From a virus, in IMG/VR virus record IMGVR_UViG_3300007345_006615, positions 1 to 28,136 of that record: a stretch of DNA of 28,136 bases; one strand, 5' to 3'. Each line of letters begins with the position of its first letter. Within the stretch, counting starts at the first letter, position 1. The notes under the pieces are model-generated. The model ran no database searches. It saw only the letters and a program-made list of their open reading frames with translations, and had not been told where the DNA came from. Below, piece after piece: positions 8,903 to 21,531 of this stretch. The position numbers and the translations under genes were made by a program.

Positions 8903-8932
8903 TTTGATTAATATATTTTGATATTTGTTTAG

Positions 8933-8968
8933 AACCAACAGTGGTGTATATATTACTGTTGGTTTTTT
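8933..8968 (+). terminator. Intrinsic terminator after ssb
   Basis: A perfect ten-base stem, AACCAACAGT (8933-8942) with ACTGTTGGTT (8955-8964), closes a 12-base loop and runs into six Ts (8963-8968). It separates ssb from the next transcription unit. Confidence 0.88.
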
Positions 8969-18470: not shown

Positions 18471-18506
18471 GCGAGGTACAATTAAATGTTGCACCTCGCT
18501 TTTTTT
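18471..18506 (+). terminator. Intrinsic terminator after coiled-coil gene
   Basis: GCGAGGT (18471-18477) pairs with ACCTCGC (18493-18499). After an A/C mismatch the stem continues with CAA (18479-18481) and TTG (18489-18491), and seven Ts follow (18500-18506). Confidence 0.9.
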
Positions 18507-18518
18507 GTGGAGATATAA

Positions 18519-18731
18519 ATGAAAAATAAATCAAAAGGCTTTACATACACAACTACAATAGATTATGATGTTGCAGATATGTATGCTTCTTCTAAATGTA
18601 AGAAATGTCTAGGTAGAGGAATAAATAAAACCTATACAAGTTTAAATGGCACAATTAAAAAGAATGAAAAATTAATTGAAAATTTAACATATTGTGACTG
18701 CGTTCATAAGAACGTAAAAAAATACGGATAA
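18519..18731 (+). CDS. Small zinc-motif protein
   Basis: This 70-residue protein has GTGGAG (18507-18512) directly upstream. It carries CKKCLGRG (27-34), a half DnaJ-type CxxCxGxG knuckle, and CDC (59-61) about 25 residues later, which could complete a metal site. It is Lys and Asn-rich and probably cytosolic. A related CxCxGxG...CPC pattern occurs in the membrane protein at 22473-23240. Function unknown. Confidence 0.65.
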   Translation: MKNKSKGFTYTTTIDYDVADMYASSKCKKCLGRGINKTYTSLNGTIKKNEKLIENLTYCDCVHKNVKKYG

Positions 18732-18766
18732 TAAAATTTAAATAATCTATTACAAATTTCAAGGTG

Positions 18767-18772
18767 TATAAT
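18767..18772 (+). promoter_or_regulatory. Candidate -10 box for the pseudoknot RNA
   Basis: A perfect TATAAT is preceded by TG. Its expected start point, about seven bases downstream, is the GG at 18779-18780 that begins the GC-containing first stem. No clear -35 is visible. The fit between the start and the stem supports an independent RNA, but AT-rich DNA gives many such boxes. Confidence 0.4.
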
Positions 18773-18947
18773 AATAATGGTCGAGAAATTAAGCTTAGTT
18801 GTAATTTTTACATTAGGTTAAAGCAACACATCTCGACTAATATTATTAAGCTAAATACTAGAAGTAAACAATTATTAAAAGTTATTAACTCAATATTAAA
18901 CAATTATAAATTACTTGTATATTTAGTTAACCCATGTGTTGCTTTTT
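18769..18947 (+). ncRNA. Candidate structured RNA with H-type pseudoknot
   Basis: Two long inverted repeats interleave. Stem 1 pairs 18769-18786 with 18831-18848 (16 Watson-Crick pairs, one G-U, one A-A mismatch; core GGTCGAGA with TCTCGACT). Stem 2 pairs 18820-18831 with 18934-18945 (12 perfect pairs, AAGCAACACAT with ATGTGTTGCTT). The second strand of stem 1 directly follows the first strand of stem 2, the layout of an H-type pseudoknot; only T18831 is shared. The first loop holds TGTAA-TTT-TTACA (18800-18812). The second holds nested stems 18849-18857 with 18920-18928 and 18862-18867 with 18911-18916. Stem 2 ends in five Ts (18943-18947), a terminator-like end. No known family was recognised. 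Confidence 0.55.
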
Positions 18948-18960
18948 AAAAAATAATTAC

Positions 18961-18997
18961 GACCCATTTCGCAAAAACGAGATGGGTCTTTAATTTT
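18961..18997 (+). terminator. Terminator-like hairpin before nrdJ
   Basis: An 11-base stem, GACCCATTTCG (18961-18971) with CGAGATGGGTC (18978-18988), has one G-T pair and a CAAAAA loop and is followed by TTTAATTTT. The T tract is broken, so efficiency may be partial. It isolates nrdJ from the RNA candidate upstream. Confidence 0.78.
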
Positions 18998-19020
18998 ATG
19001 TACATAGGAGTAGGATTTTA

Positions 19021-21531
19021 ATGTCAAGATTTACAAATTCATTTTCAGAAGAAACATGGTATCAGAAATATAAATTTGGAGATGATAAAAATATTGAAGA
19101 CACTTGGAGAAGAGTTGCGAAAGACTTAGCATCAGTTGAAGTAGAAAAAGAAAAATATGAAGAAAGGTTTTATGAGATATTAGAAGATTTTAAATTTGTT
19201 CCAGGCGGAAGAATTACAAGCAATGCTGGAACTGGATTAAAGGGAACGACTTATATTAATTGTTTTGTTGACGGTTTTGAAGGTACTGATCTGGATTCTA
19301 TCGAAGGTATTTATTCTACACTAACTAAACAAGCACAAATTTTAAAAAGCGAAGGAGGCTATGGATTTTGTGCAGATGTAATGCGTCCTTGCGGTTCACA
19401 TATTGGAGGAATTGCAAACCAGTCTCCCGGTTCTGTAAAGTTCTTAGAGTTATGGGACAAATCATCAGAGATTATTACAGCAGGATCAAGCAAAAAGTCA
19501 AGAAAAGACCAAAAGAATTTTATCAGAAAGGGTGCGCAAATGGTAACTATGAGTTGCTGGCATCCAGATATTATTGAATATATTGAAGCAAAAAGAACGC
19601 CAGGACGGTTATCTAAATTTAATATGTCTGTTTTATGTACAGATGATTTTATGGAAGCTGTTAAAAAAGACCAAGCATGGTTTTTATGGTTTCCAAACTA
19701 TGAAGATTACCCAAATCTTTATAAAAAAGAATGGGATGGAGATCTTAAAAAATGGGTAAAACTGGCAGAGGCTAGTGACGAAAGCGATAAATCTCCATGC
19801 GTTCCCTACCACACCTTTGATTCTGCAAGAGATTTGTGGAATCTAATTATGGATAATACATATAATAGAAATGAACCGGGGGTTCTTTTTATTGACAATA
19901 TGAACAAGATGAACAATCTTCATTATTGTGAAAATATTAATGCTACAAACCCATGTGGTGAACAGGTATTACCCATCGGGGGTGTTTGTTTGTTAGGGTC
20001 TATTAATTTAGTTCATTTTATTGATCCAGAAAATAAAGACTGGAAATATGATGAGTTAGAAAGATGTATACATATTGCGATAAGATTTATGGATAATGTT
20101 AATGACAAAACAAATGTTCCTCTAAAATCTCAAAAGAAAAATCTGATTGATAAAAGAAGAATAGGTCTTGGTGTTATGGGGTATGGTTCAGCATTGATGA
20201 TGGCTAGGGTAAAGTATGGAAGCAAGAAAGCTTTAGAAATGACAGAAAATCTTATGAGGTTTTTTACAAATGAAGCATACAAAGCTTCTTCATTTTTAGC
20301 TAAAGAAAAAGGAGCTTTTCCCCTATTCGATAAAGATAAGTATCTTGATGGCGAATTTATTAAAAATTTAAATGTTGATACGGTTGGACTAATAAAAAAA
20401 TATGGAATAAGAAACTCACACGTTACTTCTATTCAGCCGACTGGCAATAGTTCTTGTTATGCAAACTTAGTCAGCGGTGGTCTTGAACCTCTATTTATGC
20501 ATGGATATTTTAGAACATCTATTCAACCAACGGTTCCAGATGGCTTGGCAAGTCCTAAAAATGTTGACTGGGAAAATAAAAAATTTGATTTAGAAAAATA
20601 TAATGGAAGTCCTCATACTGATTGGAAATGGGTAAAAGAAGGGGATGAGAATCTTCTTGCAACAGAATTTGAAGGGAAAGTGTGGAAATTTGATCGTACA
20701 AGAGGTCTTTTAAAAGAAGAATGGATAGAAGATTATGGTGTATCTTATTTAAGGAGGAATAAAAAATGGTCTGCTGATGCTAATTGGGCGTCTTGCACTA
20801 TGGATCTTGATGTTGATTCTCATGTTAATACAATGTCAATATTTGCTAATTGGGTTGATTCAGCTATTTCTAAAACAATCAATCTACCAAATGATTATCC
20901 ATATGAAGACTTTAAAGAAGTTTACAATAAGGCATGGAAAAAAGGAATAAAAGGATTTACGACCTATAGAGCAGGAACAATGACTGCTGTTCTTTCTGCT
21001 AATTCTTCTATTGATAATAAAGAAGAAAAACTCCCAGAGGAAAGACCAAAAGAACTAAAATGTGATGTTTATCATATAAAAGTAAAAGGTGAAGAATACT
21101 TTGTTCTTGTTGGGCTATATGAAGGTCAGGTATATGAGGTGTTTGCTGGTAAAAATGGATTTATCGACAAAAAAATTAAAACCGGAAAAATCATAAAACT
21201 AGGTCGTCCAAAAGGTGTTTATAAAGCAATCTTAGAAGATGGTCTTGAGCTTTCTCCGATAAATCAAACTTGTAGTGAAGAAGAAGATGCTTTGACAAGA
21301 ATGACTTCTACAGCACTTAGAAGCGGTGCAGATACTCAAATGATTGTTCAACAATTAGAGAAAGTAAAAGGAGATATGAATTCTTTTGCAAAGAGTATGG
21401 CAAGAGCATTAAAAAAATATATACCAGATGGATCAGAGGAAGAGGGATATTGTCCAGAATGTGAACAAGACTCATTGATTAGGCAGGAAGGATGTGTTAC
21501 TTGTACAAAATGTGGTTGGTCCAAATGTTAG
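19021..21531 (+). CDS. nrdJ: Class II (adenosylcobalamin-dependent) ribonucleotide reductase
   Basis: This 836-residue protein matches NrdJ in length and active-site spacing. Cys81 in TYINCF is one reducing Cys. Asn310, Cys312 and Glu314 in NATNPCGEQ are the thiyl-radical set, and Cys323 in GGVCLLGSINL is the second reducing Cys, 11 residues on as in the Thermotoga enzyme. QPTGNSS binds phosphate. The C-terminal region ends in a zinc ribbon (CPECEQ, then CTKCGWSKC) typical of long NrdJ. It reduces ribonucleotides to deoxyribonucleotides using B12, without oxygen and without NrdB. AGGA (19012-19015) precedes the ATG. No cobalamin riboswitch element (B12 box) is seen upstream. It depends on host-derived cobalamin. 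Confidence 0.96.
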   Translation: MSRFTNSFSEETWYQKYKFGDDKNIEDTWRRVAKDLASVEVEKEKYEERFYEILEDFKFVPGGRITSNAGTGLKGTTYINCFVDGFEGTDLDSIEGIYSTLTKQAQILKSEGGYGFCADVMRPCGSHIGGIANQSPGSVKFLELWDKSSEIITAGSSKKSRKDQKNFIRKGAQMVTMSCWHPDIIEYIEAKRTPGRLSKFNMSVLCTDDFMEAVKKDQAWFLWFPNYEDYPNLYKKEWDGDLKKWVKLAEASDESDKSPCVPYHTFDSARDLWNLIMDNTYNRNEPGVLFIDNMNKMNNLHYCENINATNPCGEQVLPIGGVCLLGSINLVHFIDPENKDWKYDELERCIHIAIRFMDNVNDKTNVPLKSQKKNLIDKRRIGLGVMGYGSALMMARVKYGSKKALEMTENLMRFFTNEAYKASSFLAKEKGAFPLFDKDKYLDGEFIKNLNVDTVGLIKKYGIRNSHVTSIQPTGNSSCYANLVSGGLEPLFMHGYFRTSIQPTVPDGLASPKNVDWENKKFDLEKYNGSPHTDWKWVKEGDENLLATEFEGKVWKFDRTRGLLKEEWIEDYGVSYLRRNKKWSADANWASCTMDLDVDSHVNTMSIFANWVDSAISKTINLPNDYPYEDFKEVYNKAWKKGIKGFTTYRAGTMTAVLSANSSIDNKEEKLPEERPKELKCDVYHIKVKGEEYFVLVGLYEGQVYEVFAGKNGFIDKKIKTGKIIKLGRPKGVYKAILEDGLELSPINQTCSEEEDALTRMTSTALRSGADTQMIVQQLEKVKGDMNSFAKSMARALKKYIPDGSEEEGYCPECEQDSLIRQEGCVTCTKCGWSKC

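Follow-up and report, generated by a model that had tools for sequence, protein, structure and literature searches.

Between a gene for a 70-aa CxxC protein and a gene for a class II ribonucleotide reductase (RNR), two inverted repeats are found within the window, that is, the whole 28,136-nt stretch of viral DNA that was analyzed. The arms of the one (18769-18786 and 18831-18848) are 18 bases each and pair throughout save for one mismatch, one of the pairs being G-U. They are interleaved with those of the other (18820-18831 and 18934-18945), which are 12 bases each and match perfectly, both repeats being as the initial annotation of this DNA had described them. As base 18831 is claimed by both repeats, the second stem proper, S2, is taken here as 18820-18829 with 18936-18945. 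Along with the first stem, S1, i.e., 18778-18786 with 18831-18839, and as judged by comparison of sequences, it constitutes an H-type pseudoknot. The features of the locus are as follows.

18519-18731, + strand: gene for the upstream 70-aa CxxC protein, a conserved neighbor, with homologues nearby in most members of the family described below
18763-18772, + strand: promoter-like element GGTGTATAAT, kept in nearly all members
18764-18949, + strand: 61-codon open frame, judged spurious, with the corresponding frame broken in other lineages
18778-18786, + strand: stem S1, 5' strand (TGGTCGAGA), partner of 18831-18839, with two-sided changes at 8/8 core pairs
18792-18819, + strand: loop-1 hairpin P2, the fold of loop 1, with a 4-bp base in the structural alignment (strand-swap test 0/20000)
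18820-18829, + strand: stem S2, 5' strand (AAAGCAACAC; family AAAGCRRCAC), near-invariant in sequence
18831-18839, + strand: stem S1, 3' strand (TCTCGACTA), covarying with 18778-18786
18849-18857, + strand: loop-3 helix P3, 5' strand, the basal helix of the fold (swap test 0/20000)
18920-18928, + strand: loop-3 helix P3, 3' strand, pairing with 18849-18857, on the same basis as that strand
18936-18945, + strand: stem S2, 3' strand (GTGTTGCTTT; family GTGTYGCTT), in every true member
18961-18999, + strand: predicted intrinsic terminator, an 11-bp hairpin (18961-18988) plus a T-rich tail, covarying across lineages
19021-21531, + strand: class II ribonucleotide reductase gene (NrdJ_Z; TIGR02504, 471 bits against a cut-off of 400)

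Taken by itself, the window displays a modest excess over chance. An interleaved pair of equal strength is seen in 13 of 500 dinucleotide shuffles and a single helix of equal strength in 8 of 500, with the nested fold of the region having a z of -2.4. As this signal is modest, in a stretch that is A/T-rich, a comparison across lineages was needed. Scanning IMG/VR with the window's NrdJ gave some 20 close relatives, a set thus picked independently of the RNA, and the element is present in most of those which have upstream sequence. Extra lineages came from pattern scans, i.e., for S2 or instead for the promoter together with the 5' S2 strand, with chance matches told apart by the absence of promoter and S1; one candidate, L159, was set aside as such a match. 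Long- and short-loop pattern scans supplied no new lineage. True members thereby amount to approximately 20 distinct sequences or lineages from uncultured phage contigs, all of them metagenomic fragments. The S2 3' strand is present as well in members that were found without an S2 3' query, i.e., by the NrdJ scan or by the 5'-only pattern.

A scan of a genome collection yielded two true members, both within one ‘Lokiarchaeota’ MAG and with the gene order of the window, the other 15 matches, which are without promoter and S1, being taken as chance ones. The two contigs (L116 and L117; JABXKB010000076.1 and JABXKB010000078.1) share the phage locus, and one carries the window's RNA unchanged. Probably these are misbinned phage contigs, though they may be a sign of a link to a ‘Lokiarchaeota’ host. 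Among cultured phages the RNA was not found by the searches run: a nucleotide similarity search against known phages returned chance matches only, the neighboring proteins have no convincing relatives in known phages, and the huge phages LR756501 and LR756502, which are nearest by NrdJ (49-56%), contain no match to the RNA.

The layout is shared across the family. The element GGTGTATAAT, or a near variant, is followed by an S1 of 8-9 bp, the distance from the TG of the element to stem 1 being 11-16 bases and mostly 13-14. Loop 1 is 20-44 nt long, with a hairpin ending in GUU; in L098 versus L106, otherwise near-identical loci, it is expanded to 95 nt (L098), and the repeats differ. The S1 3' strand comes 1-4 nt after the S2 5' strand, loop 3, which contains P3, spans 76-116 nt, and 9-18 nt past the S2 3' strand (GUGUYGCUU) there is a hairpin plus T run. 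With only matches better than E 0.01 counted, each of the RNA-bearing contigs (15 of 15) holds a single copy of the RNA; a second match, of 14 bits and E 0.5, is seen in one contig. That the S2 strand might be a repeated targeting motif was considered and rejected, with the strand occurring almost solely inside the RNA.

Pairing is what the lineages have in common. S1 strands pair better with their own partner than with a lineage-swapped partner in 20,000 of 20,000 permutations. For P2, P3, and the terminator hairpin, swapped strands reach the observed mean pairing in 0 of 20,000 permutations each. P3 in particular differs in sequence in each lineage with its pairing kept, though a few individual members (L093, L098) have a weak P3. 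Both the hairpin in loop 1 and the nested stems in the second loop, as initially proposed, are thus borne out. In the structural alignment, all eight S1 core pairs display two-sided changes, and 93% of S1 cells are paired, a share that is 73% in shuffles and drops to 26-49% on sliding. That alignment was fitted to a covariance model and so leans towards structure, but the swap test is independent of it. Plain MAFFT alignments, which placed S1 out of register, were replaced by a three-member in-register seed followed by model-based realignment. The covariance model built from those three members, a search which the initial annotation had suggested, recovered 17 further members, the window included (25.5 bits, E 0.0014).

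Support for S2 is of a different kind, consisting of strict conservation with little covariation. Seven of its ten pairs are invariant or nearly so, one is compensated, one is A-U or G-U, and one is often unpaired. The compensation is a single G-C to A-U change, found in the window's clade, while the A/G wobble recurs. Each of the two interleaved helices therefore carries compensatory change, S1 at 8/8 pairs and S2 at one, and the H-type pseudoknot that was first proposed from the window alone holds across about 20 lineages. By comparison, that is, the predicted structure of S1, loop-1 hairpin, S2, loop-3 helix, and terminator is established.

No -35 element is conserved among the members. The conserved promoter-like element should set the start of transcription, predicted at ~18779-18780, which agrees with an earlier suggestion that a TATAAT box places the start at stem 1. 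Given that start, the A/T outer half of what had been described as an 18-bp stem 1 is promoter, overlapping with the -10 box, and probably is left out of the transcript; it is the core of 8-9 bp (18778-18786 with 18831-18839) which stands. Nine related contigs hold additional copies of GGTGTATAAT, the most being eight in 119 kb, and several of these copies directly precede genes (structural genes among them) or tRNAs. Only one RNA-bearing contig has the reversed pattern, of which there is none in the 119-kb, eight-copy case. Some 20-45 bases before GGTGTATAAT in L083, L084, L088, L105, and L013 there is a palindrome like AAAAGTTG-N4-CAACTTTT, which may be an activator or operator site, and no such palindrome is present upstream of the promoter in the window. 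Elsewhere in the window, at 8931-8966, a 16-bp hairpin that has a T-rich tail contains GGTGTATATATT, a promoter-like motif.

The 18961-18988 hairpin begins 15 bases past S2 and is the sole terminator-like site in the region, where 0.1 would be expected. Initially it was viewed as partly conflicting with the preceding structure, but it appears instead to be a separate terminator, one which does not compete with S2. A GC-rich, covarying hairpin plus T run is found in all lineages other than the branch of L093-L095 and L126, from which the hairpin is absent and in which S2 leads directly into seven Ts. The T run following S2, pointed out previously, is therefore a plausible terminator in that branch only, with the next hairpin predicted to terminate elsewhere. 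The element thus would possess both its own promoter and its own terminator, each as predicted, as well as no conserved coding frame. From terminator to RNR start codon there are ~20-50 bases, leaving little room for another promoter.

Upstream of the RNA there is mostly a dCMP-deaminase-like gene or instead the 70-aa CxxC gene, homologues of which lie in similar position in most members and also in sister phages which are without the RNA. Downstream, wherever the contig reaches that far, there is an RNR gene, either directly or after one small gene. This RNR, however, is not always the same enzyme. NrdJ_Z is what the window and L130, among others, encode here. L088 plus L128 have one family of class Ia NrdA and L094 another, while L132 and L098 have an RTPR-like monomeric class II enzyme, a subtype name that is provisional, the curated cut-off of the RTPR model not being reached. 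In sister phages that share this gene order and have an NrdJ 71-78% identical, the RNA is missing both upstream of that gene and from the contig (these being fragments). With at least four RNR families behind the RNA, and with NrdJ found also without it, the RNA is tied to no single enzyme or cofactor, and the specific link to nrdJ that was initially suggested is not upheld.

Across L088, L094, L126, L128, L130, L132, and L098, compared with the window's 19021-21531, the RNR has been swapped among NrdJ_Z, the two class Ia NrdA families, and RTPR-like enzymes, with many of the genes on either side left where they were. The RTPR-like reductase of L098 (8071-11601, - strand) contains an intein with a LAGLIDADG endonuclease domain. 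In some phages only, a small lysine-rich (basic) protein of 70-111 aa is encoded between RNA and RNR (L092, L093-L096, L098, L130, L132); two members of this protein family were scanned, with no Pfam or NCBIfam match. On contigs without the gene at that site it was not found elsewhere (again, fragments), and a role as an obligatory partner of the RNA therefore looks unlikely.

What kind of RNA this is can be viewed from several perspectives. The one toward which we lean, if by no wide measure, is of a discrete phage noncoding RNA, of a predicted length of ~215 nt. It is preferred because promoter and terminator form a unit of their own, because the L093-L095/L126 branch has kept a termination signal by different means, and because the RNA persists across RNR exchange. 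Transcription would start from the phage's own promoter at the first bases of S1. S1 then would lock the 5' end, and S2 plus terminator the 3' end, of what would be a stable, compact RNA. Constant in sequence and beside the loop-1 hairpin, S2 may be the surface for one conserved partner, a candidate being a protein, RNA polymerase for instance, of host or phage, with S1 and the loop-3 helix serving presumably as scaffold. The reductase genes would be reached solely via read-through or from promoters further upstream. Counting against a discrete RNA is its constant position upstream of an RNR, also after RNR exchange, as a leader would have.

It is that constant placement before RNR which keeps alive, as a possible though distinctly less probable reading, a cis-acting leader. 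Here the pseudoknot, still on the polymerase or else in complex with a protein or ligand, would decide passage through the terminator and into the RNR operon, whether by put-like antitermination or by factor-dependent attenuation. The order of promoter, structured RNA, terminator, and RNR start, with so short a final distance, is what a leader would display, every member with a long enough contig has an RNR downstream, and the near-constant S2 could touch polymerase. Sister phages nonetheless keep NrdJ without the RNA. The tight packing is no special evidence, moreover, as at another site of this phage, too, a terminator lies right up against the following start (18471-18506 before 18519).

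Nor has pairing of the RNA with the terminator or start site co-evolved. The RNA's own pairing with either terminator arm, with the spacer, with the 45 nt after the terminator, or with the start region is no better than lineage-swapped pairing, in a test which would miss very short or invariant pairing but which, in kind, S1 and P3 pass. An attenuating or other base-pair switch thereby becomes unlikely, which leaves two options, an RNA that is discrete and terminated or one that acts in cis by contacting polymerase or a protein.

A put-like leader has a known counterpart. HK022 putRNA, a phage antiterminator RNA of ~70 nt with two stem-loops, acts through contact with RNA polymerase, and, like the present RNA, it is found right after a promoter and ahead of terminators (PMC9378689). 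It belongs, however, to lambdoid early operons, whereas the RNA described here is larger, with a conserved core of ~170 nt, and is pseudoknotted, differences that argue against a leader of that type.

More speculatively, and as something we consider rather improbable, the RNA could reprogram RNA polymerase or a host factor via S2, thereby licensing whichever RNR cassette follows. If so, then it would be a point at which an RNA, independently of cofactor, controls the dNTP supply of the phage.

Far less probable is a replication-origin transcript, that is, promoter plus structured RNA priming phage DNA synthesis. A single copy per contig, the conserved promoter, and nearby nucleotide-metabolism genes are consistent with such a role, but a primer needs neither a terminator nor a sequence-constant S2. 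Slightly less probable still is an adenosylcobalamin riboswitch, or another base-pair-switching riboswitch, for RNR. In the window the RNA does precede a B12-dependent RNR, but in other members the enzyme encoded behind it is class Ia NrdA, which works without cobalamin, no Rfam cobalamin model matches, and the alternative pairing with terminator or start site is missing. That the repeats arose by chance in A/T-rich DNA, or that the region is coding, may be dismissed despite that modest window-only excess. Both are refuted by covariation, by recovery with the covariance model, and by the frame at 18764-18949, in which every other lineage, L086 with its 91% identical NrdJ among them, has 2-8 stops; the lack of a coding frame is as initially claimed.

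Rfam 15, in which membership means a score at or above a family's gathering threshold, provides no family for this RNA, consistent with its having been called undescribed. There were 0 matches to the window, a best score of 26.3 bits versus a cut-off of 65 for the window region at E up to 10, and, with eleven member loci searched up to an E of 1, a single CRISPR-repeat match that is below family threshold. A literature search found nothing on RNR-linked phage RNA of such kind. The family and its pseudoknot layout are therefore new as far as these searches reach, though structured phage RNAs that come with promoter and terminator are, as a kind, already known. The initial observation is confirmed and the interpretation of it partly supported.

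Phage lambda's 6S RNA, the terminated pR'-tR' leader, similarly is ~200 nt, made from a phage promoter, and located in front of an operon. It is not known to be pseudoknotted, and the likeness is one of description rather than of alignment. SAM-II and preQ1-I are small H-type pseudoknot riboswitches, resembling the present RNA in fold, in a sequence-constant second stem, and in position upstream of a gene. They are, however, much smaller, and the RNA here lacks both an Rfam match and a switching partner in terminator or start site.

With its shape kept while its sequence and the enzyme behind it have changed, this RNA probably does something that these phages need. It adds to an uncultured phage lineage a covariation-supported RNA family that is absent from Rfam 15. 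It represents, too, a natural experiment, with the RNA fixed while the RNR behind it is swapped, the enzymes being of class II (dimeric or monomeric) or of two class Ia types, and completed by a sister group in which the RNA was either lost or never present. That experiment makes the question of leader or free RNA directly testable.
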